Origin: Sporolactobacillus kofuensis
GTDB taxonomy: Bacteria; Bacillota; Bacilli; Bacillales; Sporolactobacillaceae
Reading direction: 5' to 3'
DNA length: 64,000 nucleotides
NCBI RefSeq assembly: GCF_024125425.1
Contig: NZ_JAMXWN010000011.1
Location: 1 to 64,000 of the forward strand
A program made the translations under genes and the position numbers. The number at the start of each line of letters is the position of its first letter. Position 1 is the first letter of the stretch. The notes below the pieces were generated by a model that searched no databases, was not told where the DNA came from, and saw only the letters and a program-made list of their open reading frames with translations. This document shows, piece by piece, positions 33,754 through 45,597 of this stretch.

Positions 33754-33929
33754 TGCGATCCCCTCGCGATCATAGTCTCTAGTCACCCTAACAGTATAAC
33801 GTAGTGATGAACACAAATCATGAACTTTTACGATGAACAAATTTAAAACGAAAAAATGAGGAGAGATGGCTGATCCTGAATGACTTGGGCAGAATTAAGA
33901 TATGACATGTAGTGAGGAGCACTGCCCGC

Positions 33930-35519
33930 ATGAACCGTTATACAAAGTACAACCCATACTGGCCGGAAACAGTCATATTCTGGGGCGCAGGGGCAACAAA
34001 ACCTCTGAACATGAAAACGACGAAAGAATTGGGACAACTGTTTCAGACACTGGCCGCAGTAGTGGATTCTGATGTGCACAGTTTAATGAGTGCCGTCGAG
34101 CAGGCATTTCCAGATGCCAAGGAACAGGTGCGAACTGAGTTGGGGGCACTGCTCAAGCTGATTGATACAACGTTTTTCGATCAGGAAGAAGAAGCAATGA
34201 ACGTCCTCAAAATTCCGAAAACGCGTGCACAACACTTGCAAATGCTCTATGATTGGCAAGCTGTGAAATTGGTGATCAAGCGTTGTCCGCGACACCCATT
34301 CAGTCTTGAGGATTTGTATAATTTACTTGATCTGCATATTCAAGTACAGAAAGGGATTGATGTAGAAGGTCAGTTCATCACGCTTGATCGATTGATTGCG
34401 GCACGACGCACGTTGGATATGCTGACGCAATTAATACACGCGATCGGCTATGCACAACTTCTGCAAGATCCGAAAACAAAATCGTTGTACCAGCACTATC
34501 ATCAATTTGCCATGACTCTTGCACGTCGGATGATGGAAGAAGGCGTGCAAAGAGCAGATCGAACGGTTCCCTTTGATGATCGCCGTTTTTATCTGTTCAG
34601 TTATGCGGTGATTTCGATGAACTGGGATCCGATCTTTCTATGGCTCATCTTCAATGCCCACAATGTAGTGAATCACAGATCTCCGAATATCGGGTCGCCG
34701 TCACAACCCATGAAACTGTTCAATGATCTTGCCCATTTTATCGCGGTACGAAAAGTCGAGGATCAGACACCATCTGCGTGGTTTCCGATGAATGAAACGG
34801 CGGTTCAACAGCTGAATGATGATACATATATGTCCGGAAGACGGGTCAGAATTGGAAAATTCTATTTTCCCCATGGCTGTCATGGGTTCAGGCAATGCCC
34901 GAAATGTGGAAAACTCACGTTCTATTTAGGAAATGAATGGCGGATTGATTCATCCAGTCTGTTTCCACCACAGATCCTACCATCGCTGTCACCAAAAATA
35001 CCGCGTTCATGCGAAGAAAAAGTGGCAATGGAATCAGGCATTTACGACGCTGTTCAATGCACGCATTGCGGAACGATTACGGAAAGTCATCACACCGCAT
35101 TCACGACACAAACCAATTTCAAGCTCATTCAGCCTTCATTTATTCAAGAAATTCAAAACGACATGAAAGTGGCGCTCGAGAACGCCAAACATCTAATCTT
35201 TGCCGGCTATTCCCTGCCTAATGATGATTTTATTGACCGAATCATGCTCTCCGCGCGTCGGAAAATGGATGGGGATAAAGTCAGATGCTCCATAATTGGT
35301 TTTAACAAAGAGGCGGAAGACCAATGGATGTATGGGGAAGATTTGAAAAAATTTTGCAGGATCCATAACCACTCCGGACTCGCTGCCACACGCGATCGTG
35401 TCGCAGGTATTTTTGGTGAGGAAAATGTAAGAGGCTACGCAGCAGGATTTCCGCATGTTTTTATGGAAAACGGGCGTGTGAGTGAGGGTAAGGTAGAAGA
35501 AATGATGCGGGTGTGGTGA
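33930..35519 (+). CDS. SIR2-like domain protein, probable NAD-processing defence-type effector
   Basis: A 529-residue protein with the marks of SIR2-like enzymes rather than housekeeping sirtuins. The NAD-binding glycine motif is WGAGATKPLNMKT at about 18-30. A catalytic-type asparagine is in SMNWDP near 231. A histidine block is in YFPHGCHGF near 313-318. Two cysteine pairs (CPKCG near 323, CTHCG near 377) form a zinc ribbon, and AGYSLPNDDFIDR near 425 is the SIR2-like C-terminal block. Residues 35-220 are helical and of unknown role. The ATG at 33930 is preceded by gaggag. Many SIR2-like proteins deplete NAD during phage infection, which is a family-based inference here. No partner gene (HerA, TIR, Argonaute) is adjacent. 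It is divergent from the epimerase gene. Confidence 0.72.
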   Translation: MNRYTKYNPYWPETVIFWGAGATKPLNMKTTKELGQLFQTLAAVVDSDVHSLMSAVEQAFPDAKEQVRTELGALLKLIDTTFFDQEEEAMNVLKIPKTRAQHLQMLYDWQAVKLVIKRCPRHPFSLEDLYNLLDLHIQVQKGIDVEGQFITLDRLIAARRTLDMLTQLIHAIGYAQLLQDPKTKSLYQHYHQFAMTLARRMMEEGVQRADRTVPFDDRRFYLFSYAVISMNWDPIFLWLIFNAHNVVNHRSPNIGSPSQPMKLFNDLAHFIAVRKVEDQTPSAWFPMNETAVQQLNDDTYMSGRRVRIGKFYFPHGCHGFRQCPKCGKLTFYLGNEWRIDSSSLFPPQILPSLSPKIPRSCEEKVAMESGIYDAVQCTHCGTITESHHTAFTTQTNFKLIQPSFIQEIQNDMKVALENAKHLIFAGYSLPNDDFIDRIMLSARRKMDGDKVRCSIIGFNKEAEDQWMYGEDLKKFCRIHNHSGLAATRDRVAGIFGEENVRGYAAGFPHVFMENGRVSEGKVEEMMRVW

Positions 35520-35989: not shown

Positions 35990-36973
35990 TCAACCATAGA
36001 ATGTGTTACCAAGAAAACTTCGAACGATCCGGACAATCGCACGCATGTCTACCTCATTGTAGCGCTGATCAATCGGCAGTGGGATCAAATGTTTAGCAAG
36101 ACGATATTCGAAACTTGACTCGGAAACACGCGATGTCACTTCTTCCCAAAAGTCATCAGTATAGATGCGGTGCTTCAGTAAAAGATCTTTTAATTGTTCA
36201 CCGCGGTCGATGAGGAATGGATAGCACATCGGACCGTTTACATTGCTGAAGTCCGCGATCAGTTGATTGTACTGCCCAATTTGTCTATGAAGATAAAGGA
36301 AATTCTCATTTCGGATCGCGCGCACATGCTCATAATCAATGCTCATTAGCAACCGTTGAGTTGTACGAGACATCGCATGCATTCCGCATGTGTCGAGATA
36401 TGCTTCATTCTGTTCGAATAGTGGCTCTGCCGGTACACTACCAAGATCAATCTGCTTCAACAGCGCATCGAATCGATAATAGGATGGATCTCGCTCCAAA
36501 CCAATTCGATCCTCAGCATCGGTATACAAATAACCCCCGTCCGGCACACCGAAAAATTTGCGCGCCGAATACAAAGTATCCACATGCGCCAGTGGCCGAG
36601 CAAAAAACGCCTGCGTATTGTCAACAATAACATGCTTCATTTTTTGGCAAAATTCACGGATATTGCTTGAGTTCAATCCGAAGTAGTTTACATAATAGAA
36701 GCATGCATCGTTTTCAAGAGTTTGATCCAAAACAGGCGCAAAATGATCATTTATAGAATAAAACTCATAATCAATGTTGAGCCGCTTGATCGGCTGAAGT
36801 ACGCTGTCACAAATATAGGTAGGTAAATATATTTTTTTATAGTTTCGCGCACGAAGTACATACTCGAGACAATAACGCGCACTGTTCAGGCGCAGCGCTT
36901 GTTCGTGGTATTCGGTGTGCTTTGGTAGCTCAAGTGAAAAAAAGCCACCGATGATTTTTTGCTTTTCGGTCAT
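35990..36973 (-). CDS. DegT/DnrJ/EryC1/StrS-like aminotransferase, short form
   Basis: A PLP-dependent fold-type I protein resembling sugar aminotransferases. The predicted PLP lysine is in LYSARKFFGVPDGGYLY near residue 138, preceded by the aspartate of VIVDNTQAFF near 117 that contacts the cofactor. The N-terminal ARYCLEYVLRARNYKKIYLPTYICDS block is also typical. At 327 residues it is shorter than the usual 360-400. The sugar substrate is unknown; no neighbouring dehydratase or nucleotidyltransferase completes a pathway here. It lies upstream of flagellin, which suggests, but does not show, a role in making a flagellar glycan. Confidence 0.68.
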   Translation of the reverse strand: MTEKQKIIGGFFSLELPKHTEYHEQALRLNSARYCLEYVLRARNYKKIYLPTYICDSVLQPIKRLNIDYEFYSINDHFAPVLDQTLENDACFYYVNYFGLNSSNIREFCQKMKHVIVDNTQAFFARPLAHVDTLYSARKFFGVPDGGYLYTDAEDRIGLERDPSYYRFDALLKQIDLGSVPAEPLFEQNEAYLDTCGMHAMSRTTQRLLMSIDYEHVRAIRNENFLYLHRQIGQYNQLIADFSNVNGPMCYPFLIDRGEQLKDLLLKHRIYTDDFWEEVTSRVSESSFEYRLAKHLIPLPIDQRYNEVDMRAIVRIVRSFLGNTFYG

Positions 36974-37234: not shown

Positions 37235-37261
37235 TAAACATCCTCTTTCTTCTGTCGATAA
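37235..37261 (+). promoter_or_regulatory. Sigma-D promoter of flagellin
   Basis: TAAA (37235-37238), exactly 15 bases, GTCGATAA (37254-37261): one mismatch to the sigma-D consensus. It leaves a leader of about 90 nt carrying two hairpins. Confidence 0.8.
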
Positions 37262-37355: not shown

Positions 37356-38183
37356 ATGATTATCAACCACAACATTGCTGCACTGAATACATTAAATCAG
37401 TTAAGCAAAAACGAATCTGCAACACAAAAATCTCTGGCTAAACTCTCTTCAGGTCTGCGTATTAATACTGCTGCTGATGATGCTGCAGGACTTGCAATTT
37501 CTGAAAAAATGAAAGCTCAAATTAATGGTCTTGATCAAGCAAAACGTAATGCTCAAGACGGTACTTCATTGATTCAAACTGCTGAAGGTGCCTTAAGTGA
37601 AACAACTTCTATCTTGCAACGTATGCGTGAACTTGCTGTTCAAGCTGGTAACACGACGAATACTGCGGATGATATAAGCCAAATTAATACAGAATTAAGT
37701 AATCTTTACAGCGAAGTGGATCGAATCAGTAAGGTAACGGCATTCAACACACAGAACCTTTTAGGTGGTTCTTTTACCGGTACTCTCCAAATTGGTGCCA
37801 ACAGCGGTGAAATTTTAAGCTTTGGTATTAGTAATATGAGTGCGGGTTCTCTCTTCTCAGGCTTTACATCTGGACAGATTGTATCGCTGACAGCAGACAA
37901 CACAAGTGCAAGTGTTGCAATCAGCGCTATTGATGTTGCAATCAAAACGGTTTCAAAGCAACGTGATAATTTGGGTGGCTTGCAGAACCGTCTTGAACAC
38001 ACAATCAATAACTTGAGTACATCCTCTCAGAACCTTACAGATGCTGAATCACGTATTACTGATGTGGATATGGCTTCTGAAATGGCTAACTTTACGAAGA
38101 ATAATATTCTGAACCAAGCAGCTCAGGCTATGCTTGCTCAGGCAAATCAGCTTCCTCAGGGTGTTCTTCAACTTCTTAGATAA
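37356..38183 (+). CDS. hag: Flagellin
   Basis: Filament subunit, 275 residues, exported through the flagellar type III system. The conserved N-terminal D0/D1 part (MIINHNIAALNTLNQLSKN, SSGLRINTAADDAAGLAISEKM) and the C-terminal part (TDAESRITDVDMASEMANFTK to PQGVLQLLR) are intact. The variable centre is only about 60 residues, rich in Ser, Thr and Asn, giving many possible O-glycosylation sites. Expression is controlled by sigma-D and probably by CsrA. The glycosyltransferase genes begin 97 bases after its stop, beyond a strong terminator. Confidence 0.97.
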   Translation: MIINHNIAALNTLNQLSKNESATQKSLAKLSSGLRINTAADDAAGLAISEKMKAQINGLDQAKRNAQDGTSLIQTAEGALSETTSILQRMRELAVQAGNTTNTADDISQINTELSNLYSEVDRISKVTAFNTQNLLGGSFTGTLQIGANSGEILSFGISNMSAGSLFSGFTSGQIVSLTADNTSASVAISAIDVAIKTVSKQRDNLGGLQNRLEHTINNLSTSSQNLTDAESRITDVDMASEMANFTKNNILNQAAQAMLAQANQLPQGVLQLLR

Positions 38184-38209: not shown

Positions 38210-38251
38210 GGGGGGTGGGGTTCTATTATAGTAGAATCCCATCCCCCTTTT
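38210..38251 (+). terminator. Strong terminator after hag
   Basis: A 16-bp stem (38210-38225 with 38232-38247) with two G-U pairs is followed by TTTT. It insulates the highly expressed flagellin gene from the glycosyltransferase genes. Confidence 0.88.
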
Positions 38252-38279
38252 CATTTAAACTTTTTTGGAGGTATATATA

Positions 38280-41200
38280 ATGTCAGGGCTTATATCCCTA
38301 TGCATGATTGTAAAAAACGAAGAGAATGTGCTGCAACGTTGCCTTGAGTCAGTCAAAGATGGTGTTGACGAAATAGTCATTATTGACTCAGGTTCAACAG
38401 ATCGTACAAAAGAAATTGCTCACAGATACACTGATAAAGTCTTTGACTACAAATGGAATAATAGTTTCTCAGAGGCACGGAATTATGCGCAATCTAAAGC
38501 AACGAGTGAATGGATATTGGCACTAGATGCTGATGAATTTGTCGATTATCAGAATTTGTTGGAACTTCGCAATGAGCTAACAGAAAATCAGGATCATTTT
38601 AATATGTGTGTAGTCAAAATCTATAATTTTGCTGGTAAGGATGCCCAAGCTATTTTTAATAATTATCATGTAAGAATTTACAAAAATGATCCGGCAATCA
38701 AATATTATCGGACGATACATGAACAACTGAAGAGAACAGATGGCGAGGAGCTTCGCTCACATGTTTCAAAACTTGTCGTCTATCATTCAGGGTATCTTTC
38801 CAATACAGTCACAGTCAAAAATAAAGGTTCAAGAAATCGAGCATTAATTAATAAAGAGATAAATGCCGAGGGACAAACTGGATTTGATTATTTTAATCTT
38901 GGAAATGAGCTCGTATCTCAAGGGAAAACAGAAAAAGCTCTCGACTGTTATGTGAAAGCCTATCAGAAAGCACCGGATATTAAATATTCTTGGGTTGGCA
39001 CCTGTCTCATACAAATGTGTCAATGTCTTGTAACTTTGAAGCGTTATAATGATGCATTAAACGTGATACGGGATAGTGAATCAATCTTTGATTCTTATGC
39101 TGACTTCAAAGCAATAAAAGGTAAGATTTATTTGCTTCAAGGGAGGGTGGATGATGCACTATATGAATTAAATGATATTGTTAATGATCAGGATAAATAT
39201 CAGGAAGCTTTGCTTAGTACAGATAGCATTTCATATCTTCCAAACAAATGGATGGGGCAGATTTATGAAGAAAAAAATGATCTGAAGAAAGCAGTACTGT
39301 ATTATACCAGAGCATTTCAGGAAAATAGGAATGACGAGGAACTATTAAATAGATATTTTGGTTTATTATTTAAAAACAGTCCATACGAAGAAATTAATCA
39401 CTTTTTCAAAGATGAAAAATTACTAACAGGAAATGAAGTTAGTGCATTATTTCTATTAAAAGTTATTTTTAATTTCCCTGAGTCTAGCAAATATACTGAG
39501 AAATTGATCGCTCAGACGAGGTATATTAATAACGTCGATGTTAAAGCCAAGTGCTTGTTAATTAGTAATAAATCTTCTGAAGCTCTTGAATTAATTAATC
39601 AGCTCCCGATGAAACAAAGGACAATAATCTTTAACACAGGGGTTTTCGATTTTTCGGATTACATAATTTCTAGTCTATTGTCAAAGCGTCAGGATGAACT
39701 TATTTCTTATGGGAAAAAATATAAGAATGCCGAAAGCATTATTAATCTAATTACCGGAAATGGGAAAGGCGATCAAGATTTACCTCTTTACTTATCTATT
39801 TTAAACCGTACTATTTGCTTACAGCAGTTCGGATTATTTGAAGAACTTCTGAATTTCAGAAATGCCTTTGATAAATCTGTCAATATTCAAATCGGACATA
39901 TGCTGTATCACTACCATTTTAATGATCTGGCGGTCCAATTTTACCAAGAATCAGGTAATGCGTTATTCGATGAACAAACATACCTTAATTTGATTAATGA
40001 GAGTAAGAAAAATAATTTATTAGAGGCGGCTTATAATTTTTCTAATCAAGCGATACAAAAGGGTTTTTATAATTTTAAAATATTGGAGGATTTGGCAAAA
40101 CTTGTACATCGGATGAACGCAGAAAAATTAGAATTATCCATTCAACAATTAGCTTTAGAATGTTATCCGGATAGTCGCTATCTTTCTAATCAAACAACTT
40201 GGGGAGAAACGCGAAAAAAAGTAGCCCTTATTTACACACCACTGTCTGGATCTAATGTAACTGCTTTGATGAGACACATTCCTGATGATATAAGATTAAA
40301 GTATAAAGTCAATCTTATAGAACAAAAAAATGACCTTCAGTATTTTAATCAATTACTTGAAAATGACGTGGTTGTTACAACTGAGGGAAACTATCCTTTT
40401 GAAAAAAGAAACATCACGAAAAAGCAAAAAATAATTGAATTATGGCATGGTTTTCCTTTAAAATCTATGGGCTTAATGGATGAAAGCGAAGTTGGTAAGG
40501 AAAAAATTAAAGACCAATGGAAGAACGTAGATGCTGTAGTTTCCTATTCAAATTTGTATAATCAATCAATGAAAAAATGTTTCGGTATAGATGAGGAAAA
40601 ATTCAAAATTCTAGGAGTACCGAGAAATGATTTACTATTACAATCAGAAGGTAGGAAAAATATAAAAAAATTATTTAATGTTTGTAATGAAAACGATCAA
40701 TATATTTTTTATATGCCAACATGGCGACATACTTCACGCCTGAATAGGAATGATGGTAGTAGAAGTTGGGAAAATTTGTTTGATATGTCTGATTTTAAAT
40801 TAAATCAGTTTGAAGCATATCTGAAAGATCATCATTTCAAGCTGATTGTAAAGCTGCATCCAGCTGATGAAAGAATGTTCATTAGTCATATAAAACAAAG
40901 CGAAAATATACTTGCTTTAACATCTGACCTGCTAACCAAATATCAACTGGACGTTTATGAATTATTAAGTGGTGCAGATTTGTTAATCACCGATTATTCT
41001 TCAACATACTTTGATTTCTTATTATTAAATCGACCTATTATTTTTACACCTGTCGATCTTGAATCTTACCGAAAATCTAGGGGATTCATTTTAAATCCAT
41101 ATGAACAATGGACGCCAGGACCAAAAGTTACATCACAAACTGAACTAGAAAATCAGATAGTTAAATCTTTGACAGACATAAATTACTTCAGCAAAGAAAG

Positions 41201-41294
41201 AGACAGATTAAAGCATATTGTTCATCAATATCAAGATGATCATTCAACAGAAAGAGTATGGAATTTTATTAGAACCTCACTAGAAGAAAAGTAA
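38280..41294 (+). CDS. Fusion of GT2 glycosyltransferase, TPR region and CDP-glycerol glycerophosphotransferase
   Basis: A 1004-residue multidomain protein. Residues 1 to about 190: GT2 fold like SunS-type enzymes (SLCMIVKNEENVLQRCLESV, IDSGSTDRT, ALDADEF as DXD). From about 195 to 350: TPR-like helical repeats (YFNLGNELVSQGKTEKALDCY, WMGQIYEEKNDLKKAVLYYT). From about 650: a TagB/TagF-type domain with ELWHGFPLKSMG, YMPTWRHTSR, VKLHPADERMF and DLLITDYSSTYFDFLLLNRP, including the two catalytic-type histidines. No membrane segment is seen. This combination would transfer a sugar and then a polyol-phosphate group. The position after hag implies flagellin as acceptor, which is an inference. The region is clearly more AT-rich than the flgK-csrA part. 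The ATG at 38280 follows ggaggt. Confidence 0.8.
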   Translation: MSGLISLCMIVKNEENVLQRCLESVKDGVDEIVIIDSGSTDRTKEIAHRYTDKVFDYKWNNSFSEARNYAQSKATSEWILALDADEFVDYQNLLELRNELTENQDHFNMCVVKIYNFAGKDAQAIFNNYHVRIYKNDPAIKYYRTIHEQLKRTDGEELRSHVSKLVVYHSGYLSNTVTVKNKGSRNRALINKEINAEGQTGFDYFNLGNELVSQGKTEKALDCYVKAYQKAPDIKYSWVGTCLIQMCQCLVTLKRYNDALNVIRDSESIFDSYADFKAIKGKIYLLQGRVDDALYELNDIVNDQDKYQEALLSTDSISYLPNKWMGQIYEEKNDLKKAVLYYTRAFQENRNDEELLNRYFGLLFKNSPYEEINHFFKDEKLLTGNEVSALFLLKVIFNFPESSKYTEKLIAQTRYINNVDVKAKCLLISNKSSEALELINQLPMKQRTIIFNTGVFDFSDYIISSLLSKRQDELISYGKKYKNAESIINLITGNGKGDQDLPLYLSILNRTICLQQFGLFEELLNFRNAFDKSVNIQIGHMLYHYHFNDLAVQFYQESGNALFDEQTYLNLINESKKNNLLEAAYNFSNQAIQKGFYNFKILEDLAKLVHRMNAEKLELSIQQLALECYPDSRYLSNQTTWGETRKKVALIYTPLSGSNVTALMRHIPDDIRLKYKVNLIEQKNDLQYFNQLLENDVVVTTEGNYPFEKRNITKKQKIIELWHGFPLKSMGLMDESEVGKEKIKDQWKNVDAVVSYSNLYNQSMKKCFGIDEEKFKILGVPRNDLLLQSEGRKNIKKLFNVCNENDQYIFYMPTWRHTSRLNRNDGSRSWENLFDMSDFKLNQFEAYLKDHHFKLIVKLHPADERMFISHIKQSENILALTSDLLTKYQLDVYELLSGADLLITDYSSTYFDFLLLNRPIIFTPVDLESYRKSRGFILNPYEQWTPGPKVTSQTELENQIVKSLTDINYFSKERDRLKHIVHQYQDDHSTERVWNFIRTSLEEK

Positions 41295-41337
41295 TTATGA
41301 TTTTTCATTTTAATCCCAGTTTGAGGAGAGAACATAT

Positions 41338-42411
41338 ATGATTATTGATATTGTACTGGGTTATGCAGTCGGTAAAGGAGGCTTGGAAAACGTTATTAAA
41401 CTGGTTACCAATGAGTTAGAGAAAAGAGGTCATTTAGTACGAGTTTTCCAAATCGCTCCTCCTAAATATTTTGATTGGGCTGAACAATTTTCAAACATAT
41501 ATTATTTCGGCGATGAGGCAGGTGTTTACTCACCACTTGATCAAAGCACAGGAGATCTCTTTTCATCAAATTATGAAAGACTCACTCAAATGTTTGGACG
41601 GCCCGATGTCATTCTGGCAACGCATACGCCTGTAATAAGCTGGCTTTGCAGAATGGCTGTTAATAAAATGAATCCTGTGAAAAAACCAACTATTCTTTCT
41701 TGGTTGCACGGACCACCTAATGTATTTGGTGGAGAAAGTTATTTGAACCTTTGTGATGGACATCTAGCTATATCAAAAAGTATTGCACAGCAGATTGGGA
41801 AACATGTTGACTCGAAACACGTCTACTATATTGGAAATACAATTGATTTTGAAAAAAGTTATCTAGTTAATAGACCATCTGAAAAGCTAAAAATGATATA
41901 CGTTGGTCGAATTGCCAACAATCAAAAGAGAGTAGATGTTTTATTAAAAGCGTTAGAACATCTTAATGGAGATTGGAGGCTCGATATTATTGGGGATGGA
42001 CCTGATCAGTCTAAATTGCAAGACTTATCTAAATCATTAAACCTGAATTCAAATGTTGAATGGCATGGGTGGAAAAGTGAACCGTGGGAAACAGTGTCGG
42101 ATGCTTCGGTATTAATACTTTCTTCTGATTTTGAAGGCTTTGCTTTGATTTTAATTGAGGCATTAGCTAGAGGCATTCCGGTAATCTCCAGCCTTTGGGA
42201 TGGAGCAGATGAAATTGTAAACGATGATGTAAACGGATGGTTGTTTCCCTGTGGTGATGATAAAAAGTTACATGACATTATTCAAAATATTCTAGATGAA
42301 GAGAAAATTTTACCAGAACCAGAACTGTGTCAAAAATCAGTTAGTGATTATAAAACGGATAAAATAGTTGATCGAATGGAAAATGCAATAAACAAAGTTA
42401 TGAATGGATAA
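41338..42411 (+). CDS. GT4-family glycosyltransferase
   Basis: Retaining glycosyltransferase with the GT-B fold, 357 residues. The donor-binding C-terminal half shows IYVGRIANNQKRVDVLLKAL near 185, IIGDGPDQSKL near 220, and the ExxxxxxxE-type block SSDFEGFALILIEALARGIPVI near 262. The N-terminal GYAVGKGGLENVIKLVTNEL is the acceptor-side glycine loop. It is 43 bases after the GT2-TPR fusion, with a ttgaggaga site, so the two are co-transcribed. It probably builds the same glycan. Confidence 0.87.
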   Translation: MIIDIVLGYAVGKGGLENVIKLVTNELEKRGHLVRVFQIAPPKYFDWAEQFSNIYYFGDEAGVYSPLDQSTGDLFSSNYERLTQMFGRPDVILATHTPVISWLCRMAVNKMNPVKKPTILSWLHGPPNVFGGESYLNLCDGHLAISKSIAQQIGKHVDSKHVYYIGNTIDFEKSYLVNRPSEKLKMIYVGRIANNQKRVDVLLKALEHLNGDWRLDIIGDGPDQSKLQDLSKSLNLNSNVEWHGWKSEPWETVSDASVLILSSDFEGFALILIEALARGIPVISSLWDGADEIVNDDVNGWLFPCGDDKKLHDIIQNILDEEKILPEPELCQKSVSDYKTDKIVDRMENAINKVMNG

Positions 42412-42447
42412 ACATGTACTAATATATTCAAAAGTAAAGTGTTGAAT

Positions 42448-42474
42448 TAAATTTTTCCTTATCTCAACCGATAG
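42448..42474 (+). promoter_or_regulatory. Sigma-D promoter of flaG-fliDST
   Basis: TAAA (42448-42451), 15 bases, ACCGATAG (42467-42474): two mismatches to the -10 consensus. It lies 43 bases before flaG. Confidence 0.6.
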
Positions 42475-42516
42475 AATAAATAGATATATCTATTTGATGG
42501 CTGTGGAGGGGAGCAA

Positions 42517-42870
42517 ATGAATGAAAGTATTAGCTCGATAAATATTGATCCGTCCATTCAAAATGATTACTCAACTGAACAGATTACGGAGCGATCCAAA
42601 GAGATAAATAAGGTACAAGCAAATCAAAGTCAGGAACAGGACTTAACTAAAAATCAAGCAAAGAAACTGGTAGATGAAGCAAATAAACTCCTTCAGCCAG
42701 AAGTTACTGAATTAAAATATGTTTATTTTGATAAACTCCAAACTTATTATGTTCAACTTCAAGATGTAAATACTCATCAAGTGATTCGCGAAATTCCTCC
42801 AAAGAAGTTTTTAGAGATGTACGCGTCAATTGCAGAAAAGCTTGGCTTAATTATAAACGATAGAGCTTAA
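42517..42870 (+). CDS. flaG: FlaG family flagellar protein
   Basis: A 117-residue protein (YvyC) thought to affect filament length. The hydrophilic N-terminal 55 residues are poorly conserved. The FlaG core follows from about 60: LKYVYFDKLQTYYVQLQDVNTHQVIREIPPKK as alternating strands, then the helix FLEMYASIAEKLGL. It sits directly before fliD, 15 bases apart. Confidence 0.92.
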   Translation: MNESISSINIDPSIQNDYSTEQITERSKEINKVQANQSQEQDLTKNQAKKLVDEANKLLQPEVTELKYVYFDKLQTYYVQLQDVNTHQVIREIPPKKFLEMYASIAEKLGLIINDRA

Positions 42871-42885
42871 AAGGAGGCGTTAAGT

Positions 42886-44748
42886 TTGGCTACGATTAGT
42901 AGTACTTCTTCGTCAGCGTCATCAAATTATTATCTATTGAATACGGGCAGCAATAGTGCCTTGCAAGTATCAGGACTTGCAAGCGGAATTGATGTTGATA
43001 GTATTGTCAATAAACTTATGGCAGCTGAATCAGTTCCTCTTGATACGATGAATCAAAAGCTGCAGCTGCTTGAGTGGAAACGCGATGATTATCGTACAAT
43101 GAGCACTCAACTCTCCACATTGCTGGATTCAGTGAATACTATGACCTTGCAATCAAGTTATACAAAAGCGGCTACTGTTAGTGATTCGACTAAGGTTACA
43201 GTTACACCTGCATCAGGGGCAAACAATGCCAACTATACGATTACTAATGCAACATTAGCGACTGTTGCAACGAATTATAGTCAAGCGTCTAATGGCATTG
43301 CTACGAGTATTGCTACTTCATCCTTTGACTCGAGTAAAGCATTAATCGATCAAGCTGCTTATCTAACTAATGGTAGTAGTATCTCTTGGGATAGTCATAC
43401 TATTACAGATGAGACACACTCAGTAATTGCTGATGGAACAGCCTTTAATTTGAATAATGGTGCGGCTACAGCAAGTTCTATCACTGTTGATGATGGCACG
43501 GCGACAACGAATTACTCAATTTTCACATCACAAGTGGATTATAATAACTCGTCGGATCCAAATAAAGTTCTTGTTGATACAAGCGGTAAATTGAGCTTTA
43601 ACAATAAGATTGTAAAGGGCTCGACAATTACTGCCTCGTATGACTATAAAACTGTTAATGTTGATTTAACCACTTATAATTCAAGTGGTCAGGCGGTACC
43701 CATTCAATTTGATGCTAATGGAAGCATGTCACTTGATAGCATTCTCCAAAAAATAAATTCATACGGAACAGTTAATAGTTTTTATGATTCGGCCTCTCAA
43801 CAAGTTGCTATTTCGACAACAAATACTGGAAACAATAATTCAAGTGGTCAGGAAATGCAGTTCAATAGTTCATTTTTTACTAACACATTGAAATTAAATA
43901 GTGCATATGAACAAGGTGGAAATGATGCGACATTTACACTCAATGGAATGAGTACGACGCGTCATTCCAATACATTTACGATTAATAACACAACCTTTAC
44001 ACTAAATGGTGCCATTCCTTCATCACAAACAGTGACTGTCGGTATAGCCACCGATACAGATGGTATGTACGATAAAATCAAAAGTTTCGTTGATACGTAT
44101 AATGACACGATTTCTAAAATTAACGATATGATTAGTACACCATCTGACCGCGACTATCAGCCACTCACTTCAGCACAGAAAGCACAAATGTCTGATACAG
44201 ATATAACAAACTGGAATGAGAAAGCACGTCAAGGAACACTTTATAATGATAATATTTTGACGGACGCTTTGAGTACAATGAGACAAAATATTTATAATGT
44301 TGTTAGCGGTATTACCGGTGGAAGCTATAGTCAATTAGCTCAAATAGGGATCACGACAAGCAGTGATTATACGGAACATGGCAAACTAGAAATTGATGAA
44401 AGTAAATTAAGAGCTGCAATTTCTGCTGATCCAAATGGAGTAATGAAACTATTTACGAGTGGTAGTACCTCTGATTCAAGTACGTCGACACAAGGCATTG
44501 CTAAGAGAATGTATACAACCATTAATAATACAATCTCTCAGATAAAGACACAGGCAGGAACAGTGTCACTTGCAAACAATCAATTTTTCATTGGACAAAG
44601 TATAAATGAACTTAGTGATCAAATAAGCACTTTTCAAGATCATTTAAAAACAATTCAAACACGATATTACAGTCAATTTACAGCGATGGAAGAAGCCATT
44701 CAACAAGCGAACTCGCAGGCTAGCTATCTTCAAAGTACGTTTAGTTAA
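42886..44748 (+). CDS. fliD: FliD, flagellar filament cap protein
   Basis: Hook-associated protein 2, the cap that folds flagellin monomers into the growing filament. The 620 residues include the FliD_N block (QVSGLASGIDVDSIVNKLMAAESVPLDTMNQKLQ) and the FliD_C region with an FVDTYNDTISKINDMI helix, ending in the coiled coil ELSDQISTFQDHLKTIQTRYYSQF. The length exceeds the 498 of B. subtilis because of an enlarged Ser/Thr/Asn-rich middle. It starts at TTG 42886, after aaaggaggcg. Confidence 0.95.
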   Translation: MATISSTSSSASSNYYLLNTGSNSALQVSGLASGIDVDSIVNKLMAAESVPLDTMNQKLQLLEWKRDDYRTMSTQLSTLLDSVNTMTLQSSYTKAATVSDSTKVTVTPASGANNANYTITNATLATVATNYSQASNGIATSIATSSFDSSKALIDQAAYLTNGSSISWDSHTITDETHSVIADGTAFNLNNGAATASSITVDDGTATTNYSIFTSQVDYNNSSDPNKVLVDTSGKLSFNNKIVKGSTITASYDYKTVNVDLTTYNSSGQAVPIQFDANGSMSLDSILQKINSYGTVNSFYDSASQQVAISTTNTGNNNSSGQEMQFNSSFFTNTLKLNSAYEQGGNDATFTLNGMSTTRHSNTFTINNTTFTLNGAIPSSQTVTVGIATDTDGMYDKIKSFVDTYNDTISKINDMISTPSDRDYQPLTSAQKAQMSDTDITNWNEKARQGTLYNDNILTDALSTMRQNIYNVVSGITGGSYSQLAQIGITTSSDYTEHGKLEIDESKLRAAISADPNGVMKLFTSGSTSDSSTSTQGIAKRMYTTINNTISQIKTQAGTVSLANNQFFIGQSINELSDQISTFQDHLKTIQTRYYSQFTAMEEAIQQANSQASYLQSTFS

Positions 44749-44771
44749 TTTTAAAAACAGGAGGAAGAGGT

Positions 44772-45179
44772 ATGCCAAATAATCCATATCAGACTTACAA
44801 AAGAAATTCCGTATTTACGGCATCTCCTGGTGAATTAACACTAATGCTTTATGAGGGGTGTGTAAAGTTTATTAGACAGGCTCGGCTTGCGTGTGAGAAC
44901 GGGGATTATGCAGAAAAGAATAAAAAATTACAACGAGCACAGGCAATTATCACTGAATTAATGGTTACTTTAGATGAAAAGCAATCTATTTCAAGAGATA
45001 TGATGCGCATGTATGACTACATTCATCGGCGCATGATTACTGCGAATATAAAAAATGATCTTCAAATACTTGATGAAATTGAACGTCTTGTCATTGATTT
45101 TCGCGATACATGGAAAGAAGTTTTGGAGATTAATCGAAAGAGTCAAAATACGAGTGGTAATGTAAGGACACATGTCTGA
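44772..45179 (+). CDS. fliS: FliS, flagellin export chaperone
   Basis: Binds the C-terminal helix of flagellin and prevents early assembly; it also binds FliW in Bacillus. The 135-residue helical bundle begins NPYQTYKRNSVFTASPGELTLMLYEG, a strong family signature, and ends with VIDFRDTWKEVL. Its stop overlaps the fliT start by one base. Confidence 0.95.
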   Translation: MPNNPYQTYKRNSVFTASPGELTLMLYEGCVKFIRQARLACENGDYAEKNKKLQRAQAIITELMVTLDEKQSISRDMMRMYDYIHRRMITANIKNDLQILDEIERLVIDFRDTWKEVLEINRKSQNTSGNVRTHV

Positions 45180-45526
45180 TGAGTGTCCAACAAATTTATG
45201 AAGTGACCTTAAAGCTTAAACAGTGTGCTGAACAACAACTGTCCAATCCTTCAATTGAGATAGTTAAAAATTTAAAAACGCAACTAGATTTACGTCAGCG
45301 ATTAATTGAAGGACTGACTGATAATTACTCTCCTGAAGAAAAAGTGCTTGGAAAGAAAATTGTTGAACTAAACAAGGAAATTAATGAGATAATGACAAGA
45401 GGAAAGCAAAATCTCATTGAAGAAATGAACAATTTTCGGCACCAAAAGAAATCACTGACTCAATATCGAGGTTATAATAACGCATTATTAAATCAATCAG
45501 GTTCGTTCTTTGATCGCCATGAATAA
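45179..45526 (+). CDS. fliT: FliT-like flagellar chaperone
   Basis: A 115-residue helical protein in the fliT position, likely a chaperone for FliD. It is rich in charged residues and short hydrophobic heptads (LKQCAEQQL, LDLRQRLIEGL, KKIVELNKEINEIM). Sequence conservation in this family is low, so position after fliS and size carry the call. The ATG overlaps the fliS stop. Confidence 0.8.
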   Translation: MSVQQIYEVTLKLKQCAEQQLSNPSIEIVKNLKTQLDLRQRLIEGLTDNYSPEEKVLGKKIVELNKEINEIMTRGKQNLIEEMNNFRHQKKSLTQYRGYNNALLNQSGSFFDRHE

Positions 45527-45557
45527 TTGTCACCAATTATATAGCTACACATACACT

Positions 45558-45597
45558 AAGACCATTGATAGGCTTTCGCCTAAGGTCTTTATTTTTT
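45558..45597 (+). terminator. Terminator after fliT
   Basis: aagacc (45558-45563) with ggtctt (45584-45589) and an inner aggc/gcct helix are followed by a T-rich run. Confidence 0.8.

Follow-up and report, generated by a model that had tools for sequence, protein, structure and literature searches.

A flagellar locus protein of Sporolactobacillus kofuensis that joins a GmaR-type glycosyltransferase to a TagF-like phosphotransferase domain and may add glycerol-phosphate to flagellin

In Pseudomonas aeruginosa, the b-type flagellin modification cluster encodes FgtA (PA1091), a single protein with a glycosyltransferase family 2 (GT2) domain and a phosphotransferase domain, and the sugar and phosphodiester on flagellin were studied by mass spectrometry of mutants (PMC11833859, PMC10714395). 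In the Type A system of Clostridioides difficile, flagellin receives N-acetylglucosamine (GlcNAc) and then a phosphodiester, which requires the TagF-like protein CD0244 (PMC10714395, PMC4441256). GmaR of Listeria is a flagellin GlcNAc transferase with tetratricopeptide repeats (TPRs), and the TPRs were suggested to hold flagellin (PMC9638930). The VR1 loci of Enterobacterales flag-2 systems contain TagB and TagD, and teichoic-type glycopolymers on flagellin were proposed for them in 2020 (PMC6993521), while the flagellin island of Geobacillus thermoglucosidans DSM 2542 contains tagD and pgs, read by its authors as a phospholipid-type modification (PMC5109656). Here, we compare with these systems a flagellar locus in a 64,000-nucleotide stretch of S. 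kofuensis DNA (contig NZ_JAMXWN010000011.1, assembly GCF_024125425.1; hereafter, the window), which encodes a 1004-residue fusion of a GT2 domain, TPRs, and a glycerophosphotransferase (GPT) domain of family PF04464.

This fusion is probably a two-headed flagellin-modifying enzyme that adds a sugar and then glycerol-phosphate from CDP-glycerol. The gene, its domains, the aligned catalytic residues, their conservation, the locus, and the tree of relatives were seen directly. In the excerpts of the papers available, the principle of such a machine is already known and the teichoic idea is already in print; the idea of a phosphodiester-decorated flagellin, put forward for this locus in a sequence-only reading, thus has earlier precedents in FgtA and CD0244 (PMC11833859, PMC10714395) and in the TagB and TagD of flag-2 (PMC6993521). 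Demonstrated glycerol-phosphate on a flagellin was not found in the parts of the literature searched, nor were a GmaR–GPT fusion, a flagellin-linked GPT group, or flagellin islands holding the sole TagD of a genome; we regard the GmaR–GPT fusion and the TagD linkage as new.

The open reading frame (ORF) of the fusion could start at TTG 38265 or ATG 38280 and stops at 41294; the ATG, giving 1004 residues, was chosen because it is preceded by GGAGG. Pfam detected Glycos_transf_2 (residues 6-120, E 3.4e-23), TPR_2 (E 4.6e-12), and Glyphos_transf (PF04464; residues 681-997, E 5.7e-62, 210 bits against a cut-off of 22.1), which bore out the single ORF with GT2, TPR, and PF04464 parts described in the sequence-only reading. 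The motifs DADEF, SGSN, WHGFPLK, KLHPAD, and DYSS were located at residues 83, 656, 722, 858, and 905, respectively. Both GPT histidines aligned with the pair of TagF (3l7i), which are replaced singly in 3l7j (WNG) and 3l7m (RMA), and the domain was assigned to PF04464 by its family score and these two catalytic histidines. The domain had been called complete with both histidine motifs; the histidines were confirmed, while completeness was not, as the match covered profile positions 65-365 of 367 and left the first 64 unmatched, though the SGSN-bearing N-terminal part common to relatives is present. Both histidines were conserved in all 10 flagellin-linked rows aligned (G1130, by our genome numbering, was not among them). 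Compared with the relative in G008, the GT2, TPR core, and GPT parts had ratios of nonsynonymous to synonymous substitution rates (dN/dS) of 0.07, 0.09, and 0.10, respectively (dS 1.1-1.4), and therefore GPT appears to be under purifying selection like the remainder of the protein; the comparison with G005 gave no ratio because dS was saturated. An AlphaFold2 model of the isolated GPT domain had a mean confidence (pLDDT) of 38.

The nearest solved structures by sequence were Listeria GmaR (22ao, 7x9r), followed by SunS, TagF, and others. With its GT2 domain bearing DxD, its TPRs, and a full-length GmaR core, the stretch of residues 1-636 is thus a complete GmaR-type protein to which GPT is appended at the end. 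Two L. monocytogenes records matched these residues at about 28% identity (tblastn). The GmaR-like proteins of G011, G029, G039, and G244 end or diverge where those of the window, G008, and G005 extend into GPT. The GT2 domain had been likened to SunS; the domain itself was verified, but GmaR was closer (22ao, E 1.6e-57) than the best SunS entry (E 5.8e-22), and SunS identity was rejected at 81 bits against the TIGR04195 cut-off of 350. A MogR–GmaR switch was also rejected, as no match to MogR (PF12181) was retrieved in the S. kofuensis genome at E 1, and the fusion is therefore treated as a relative of the GmaR transferase and not as part of that switch.

Relatives of the GPT domain were collected from genome samples of the order (12 of 397 genomes with GPT, E 1e-31), the class (10 of 398, E 1e-45), and the phylum (12 of 398, E 1e-31), where every count includes the S. 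kofuensis genome and the samples partly overlap. Neighborhoods were covered for all order and class matches and, from the phylum, for all but one of the 11 further genomes (G501, which is in no tree). Flagellin linkage was judged within about 9-20 kb per locus (more in G287, G355, and G511) using window proteins as markers, and "unlinked" means that flagellin was not seen inside the stretch covered. Rows w_L047b and wG000_C23a were dropped from a 34-row tree, three further long-branch rows (w_L081b, w_L082b, and w_L048b) were dropped for a 37-row tree, and the broken copy of G018 is in neither.

In the 37-row tree, rooted at the midpoint, the window GPT fell in a 16-row group with support of 93/94 (the mark of the tool is 95/80). 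Eleven of these rows were flagellin-linked (the window, G008, G005, G403, G244, G569, G511, G463, G355, G287, and G1130); the remainder comprised three on a contig end or short contig (G722 and two from G776) and two unlinked rows (G972 and G1043). All six rows of the inner group holding the window (98/94) were flagellin-linked, and the 34-row tree had contained a corresponding 13-row group (96/96). None of the 21 rows outside the group was seen linked: 14 loci without a flagellar marker, four paralogues there, and three genes of the S. kofuensis genome. Linked and unlinked labels changed twice on the tree, compared with a mean of 9.5 in shuffles, of which 0 of 500 were as low. Besides the fusion, three genes at two sites in the S. 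kofuensis genome account for four further PF04464 matches, with no flagellar marker in either stretch, and the window GPT grouped apart from them in both trees. The relatives indicate that the GPT domain of the fusion is not a stray wall enzyme. Confinement of its homologues to wall polymer clusters, named in the sequence-only reading as what would speak against a flagellar role, was looked for and not found, with 11 of the 16 nearest rows flagellin-linked and TagD in four of the loci.

In the window, G008, and G005, the fusion partner of the GPT domain was GT2-TPR; in G244 and G403, the partner was a GT4-like part (GT4, glycosyltransferase family 4). In G569, GPT was joined to another long N-terminal part behind a separate GT2-TPR protein, and in G511, it carries a tail of about 140 residues, TPR-like on visual inspection. 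In G355, G287, G463, and G1130, it belongs to islands that also hold Maf-like, PseB-like, and CMP-transferase genes, three of the four also having NeuB-like genes; these island markers were drawn from two of the same loci. At loci L046 (7740-10286) and L045 (8074-10578), a GT4-like part fused to a flagellin-type GPT lies between hag and flaG and is followed by a STAS-domain gene.

TagB, TagF, and TarL use CDP-glycerol or CDP-ribitol as the donor and act on membrane-bound wall precursors. TagD was called where TIGR01518 scored over its cut-off of 165.4 and was searched genome-wide at E 1e-20. It was found in the GPT flagellin islands of G569 (212.8 bits), G355 (198.1), G287 (183.5), and G511 (181.5), adjoining GPT in G569, G287, and G511 (in the last, the match begins 5 nt past the GPT stop) and one gene apart in G355. 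In G569, G511, and G287, the island TagD was the sole match in the genome. TagD was located elsewhere in the genomes of S. kofuensis, G008, G005, G011, G244, and G403; that of S. kofuensis (209 bits, G000:C1:70987) lies just before two GPT genes, in keeping with CDP-glycerol synthesis by this organism. In G027, G341, and G379, TagD also lay close to GPT genes that fall outside the flagellin group, a finding that fits CDP-glycerol as the donor for the wider GPT family. A GPT head using CDP-glycerol would be expected to have TagD as a neighbor, particularly in genomes where wall teichoic acid synthesis provides none, and the islands bear this out. The donor is thus likely to be CDP-glycerol and the product glycerol-phosphate on the flagellin glycan, the linkage being an association.

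A TagD-like domain also opens proteins of 448-453 residues near GPT (L078:2167-3516, L100:2479-3825, and L101:3365-4726); in L078, the one whose partner part was examined, it is fused to a GFO/IDH/MocA oxidoreductase. These proteins are perhaps one-protein makers of an unusual CDP-polyol. An Fe-ADH_2-type dehydrogenase lies near non-flagellin GPT genes (L048:7905-9670, L079:10894-12658, and L080:7177-8214), with an NTP-transferase gene beside it in both loci examined for one (the first two), and these loci perhaps represent another route to a CDP-polyol.

The fusion, probably soluble, would work as follows, where the activity, substrates, and order of steps are predictions. The TPR/GmaR core would hold flagellin in the cytosol while the GT2 domain adds a first sugar, probably GlcNAc, to Ser or Thr, as suggested by GmaR homology. 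The neighboring GT4 may add a second sugar. The TagF-like C-terminal head would then move glycerol-3-phosphate from CDP-glycerol onto the sugar, a step proposed from gene neighborhoods, with CDP-glycerol presumably made by the TagD encoded beside the two other GPT genes. A charged phosphodiester would thereby be formed on flagellin prior to export, and the product would most likely be a single glycerol-phosphate cap. The joining of a flagellin-type GT2-TPR to a polyol-phosphate transferase, with a glycan–glycerol-phosphate phosphodiester as the predicted outcome, is accordingly upheld as a prediction; overall, the earlier observation was confirmed and its interpretation partly supported.

Several points weigh against glycerol-phosphate transfer from CDP-glycerol to flagellin. 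The close species G011 does without the GPT head. No TagD was found at E 1e-20 in the flagellin-linked G1130 or in G776, and therefore the donor may be a different one in part of the group; a second TagD lies elsewhere in the G355 genome; and in G463, a TagD-like domain under the cut-off is fused to a GFO/IDH/MocA oxidoreductase, which suggests a different CDP-polyol. TagD near non-flagellin GPT genes bears on the donor and not on a flagellar acceptor, and the joining of GPT to a GT4-like part in G403 and G244 indicates that GPT may act on a sugar added later. The NCBIfam equivalogs of the Tar enzymes all scored far under their cut-offs (TarF 91 of 550 bits, TarL 71 of 1000, and TarB 65 of 500). 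As the similar heads of FgtA and CD0244 are thought to move threonine-phosphate, the donor does not follow from the family name. The support of 93 for the 16-row group is just under the mark of 95, the root is the midpoint, and near-copies aid the label count.

The GPT head could instead move the phosphate of an amino acid, for instance N-methylated threonine-phosphate with CDP-threonine as the donor. The locus does hold a GT2 and a TagF-like phosphotransferase beside flagellin, as the Type A and b-type systems do, and FgtA has the same two-headed layout (PMC11833859, PMC10714395). The known clusters add phosphatase-like, cytidylyltransferase, and methyltransferase genes, whereas the hag–fliT block here contains only the fusion, GT4, flaG, fliD, fliS, and fliT (at this locus; homologues of CD0241-CD0243 were not sought genome-wide), and the neighbor that recurs in relatives is TagD; we consider this chemistry unlikely. 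A true teichoic-acid chain, with the head acting as a polymerase that places several glycerol-phosphates in series on the filament, is slightly less likely again. The polymerases TagF and TarL are among the PF04464 relatives, and teichoic-type glycopolymers were proposed for flag-2 flagellin (PMC6993521). The TagF-like and TagB-like rows of the S. kofuensis genome, however, both group apart from the fusion GPT. The flagellar export channel is narrow, and long chains would be hard to pass through it.

The PF04464 family is chiefly known from walls and capsules, and the fusion could be a wall teichoic acid or capsule enzyme merely situated in a flagellar locus; given its GmaR-like N-terminal 636 residues, the other PF04464 genes elsewhere in the genome, and nearest GPT relatives that are mostly flagellin-linked, we rate this as very improbable. 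No more credit is due to an inactive or regulatory GPT head, with GmaR-type sugar transfer alone counting: G011 manages without GPT, but both histidines are kept in the flagellin-linked rows and the dN/dS of the domain is low. We thus retain glycerol-phosphate transfer by a two-headed enzyme, with a single cap most likely in preference to a chain. For a broader proposal, the chances seem evenly balanced: that of a flagellin-locus family making teichoic-acid-type filaments, in which a dedicated GPT group, some of it fed by a sole TagD, adds one glycerol-phosphate or a short chain, its head having been joined at least two times to different glycosyltransferases (GT2-TPR, and GT4-like in G244 and G403) as an exchangeable capping module.

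Within the family, this GPT type (E 1e-31) occurred in four of 26 genomes (S. kofuensis, G008, G005, and the broken G018), while all 26 had a flagellin match. A search for the same architecture beside flagellin genes elsewhere had been suggested, and G008 and G005 carry the full fusion at the same hag-flaG slot; G018 carries it in pieces. The same locus of G011 encodes a GmaR-like protein of 647 residues without a GPT domain and two GT4 genes. As G005 and G011 are the closest pair by SecA identity (97.6%), the presence of the GPT head varies between close species. Identity between the window and G005 was 48% for GT2-TPR, 67% for GPT, and 94% for SecA, and these uneven values suggest that the hag-flaG slot is a site of exchange.

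In G013, a Maf-like gene (L105:7595-9448, 49 bits) takes the place of the GmaR-type gene in the slot, with a NeuB-like gene beyond hag. Flagellin open frames were short (303-324 residues) in the genomes with a window-like GmaR protein (S. kofuensis, G008, G005, and G011) and 387-563 residues in 19 other family genomes; G013 (303), G021 (329), and the broken G018 depart from this pattern. In G018 (L022), hag, the fusion, fliD, and flgK are each broken up into multiple frames; as the assembly is listed at 75% completeness and 10% contamination, assembly errors seem likelier than decay. A scan for relatives in named genomes retrieved one weak Bacteroidales locus. Thirty-three plasmid records matched; the 25 listed include GmaR-like, other GT2, or separate GPT genes, and none of those 25 reached at least 80% query coverage.

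The features of the locus are collected in Table 1, in the order hag, hairpin, fusion, GT4, flaG, fliD, fliS, and fliT. The promoter-like pattern upstream of hag, which follows what we take to be the SigD consensus, had one match in the 64 kb with 0.16 expected, and at least one match was found in 15 of 100 shuffles. Flagellin Hag scored 333 bits against NF009446, below the cut-off of 352. The fusion had been placed directly behind hag, and its position was verified; a strong terminator-like hairpin (38210-38247) stands between the two, and therefore the fusion is probably transcribed less than hag, by read-through or weakly. The best nearby promoter-like match for the fusion overlaps its start codon. 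No terminator-like site was found on the + strand from 38247 to 45569, consistent with a single unit from the fusion to fliT and with the earlier suggestion that the fusion and GT4 are co-transcribed. GT4 starts 43 nt past the fusion stop. The best NCBIfam match of GT4 was NF007396 (204 bits, under the cut-off of 385).

Table 1. Features of the flagellar locus in the window
Feature	Coordinates	Strand	Basis
SigD-type promoter-like site TAAA-N15-GTCGATAA, upstream of hag	37235..37261	+	DNA pattern search
hag, flagellin, 275 aa, only N- and C-terminal flagellin domains	37356..38183	+	Pfam Flagellin_N, Flagellin_C
Terminator-like hairpin, hag/fusion gap	38210..38247	+	17-pair stem, 9 G-C pairs, then TTTTCATTTA
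GT2-TPR-GPT fusion, 1004 aa	38280..41294	+	ORF, Pfam, phmmer; full fusion also in G008 (79%) and G005 (55%)
GT2 domain, residues 1-200	38280..38879	+	PF00535 at 6-120; phmmer GmaR 22ao, residues 3-197, E 1.6e-57
TPR and GmaR-core region, residues 201-637	38880..40190	+	TPR families; phmmer GmaR 7x9r, residues 145-636, E 4e-36
GPT domain, residues 645-1004, SGSN/WHGFPLK/KLHPAD	40212..41291	+	PF04464, 210 bits; TagF 3l7i alignment; dN/dS 0.10 vs G008
GT4 glycosyltransferase, 357 aa	41338..42411	+	PF00534; relatives at the same place in G008, G005, G018, G011
flaG	42517..42870	+	PF03646
fliD, filament cap	42886..44748	+	PF07195, PF02465
fliS, flagellin chaperone	44772..45179	+	PF02561
fliT-like	45179..45526	+	PF05400, E 0.00069, under its cut-off

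AT-richness had been taken as a sign that the fusion gene was acquired, and this was not well supported. Third-position GC was 0.23-0.29 across the hag–fliT block compared with 0.47 for secA, so that hag, flaG, fliD, fliS, and fliT are AT-rich too, and in G011, whose locus lacks GPT, it was 0.24-0.29 from hag to fliD compared with 0.53 for secA. Composition therefore marks mostly the block and not the fusion gene, even though the GPT part has the lowest overall GC of the block (0.31; others 0.33-0.40); shuffling at the slot is, however, evident from the unequal identities.

Upstream of hag, 35990-36973 (-) encodes a 327-residue protein with no family match over cut-off, which by eye resembles a pyridoxal phosphate-dependent aminotransferase. 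It was rejected as a partner of the fusion, as 13 of the 15 genus genomes carry it, including 10 that lack the fusion, and none of 15 others does; it therefore belongs to the genus core. For the 535-residue product of 33912-35519, Pfam gave weak hints of SIR2_2 and a zinc ribbon, all below cut-off, and neither NCBIfam nor PADLOC returned a match. Anti-phage defense was rejected, as PADLOC gave no match for the fusion and four nearby proteins.

If the proposed reaction takes place, wall-teichoic chemistry would be carried onto a protein filament as a charged phosphodiester coat on flagella, which may alter filament bundling, phage adsorption, and immune recognition. The scattered reports of flag-2 TagB/TagD and Geobacillus tagD would then become a family with a recognizable enzyme, and a part of the PF04464 genes that annotation would class as wall enzymes may be flagellar. 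G005, with the GPT head, and G011, without it, form a natural pair of close species.

Compared with the wall enzymes TagB, TagF, and TarL, the fusion shares the catalytic PF04464 domain, whereas its GPT lies outside the GPT group of its own genome and far under the NCBIfam cut-offs. The Geobacillus island likewise has tagD within a flagellin glycosylation region, with no GPT mentioned in the available part of its description (PMC5109656). The flag-2 loci, set beside the fusion by description only, likewise place teichoic-type genes inside a flagellin glycosylation region, whereas they belong to other bacteria and their available description mentions no GT2-TPR fusion (PMC6993521). GmaR of L. 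monocytogenes matches residues 1-636 of the fusion end to end, whereas it lacks a GPT domain (637 residues) and is also the MogR antirepressor. By published description, CD0240 (a glycosyltransferase) and the TagF-like CD0244 of C. difficile resemble a split form of the same machine, whereas they are two separate proteins and their proposed donor is CDP-threonine or its N-methyl form (PMC10714395, PMC4441256). FgtA, likened on the same basis, is a GT2–phosphotransferase fusion at a flagellin modification cluster, whereas it adds N,N-dimethylthreonine-phosphate and needs PA1088-PA1090 (PMC11833859, PMC10714395), and CDP-glycerol is the likely donor for the fusion described here.

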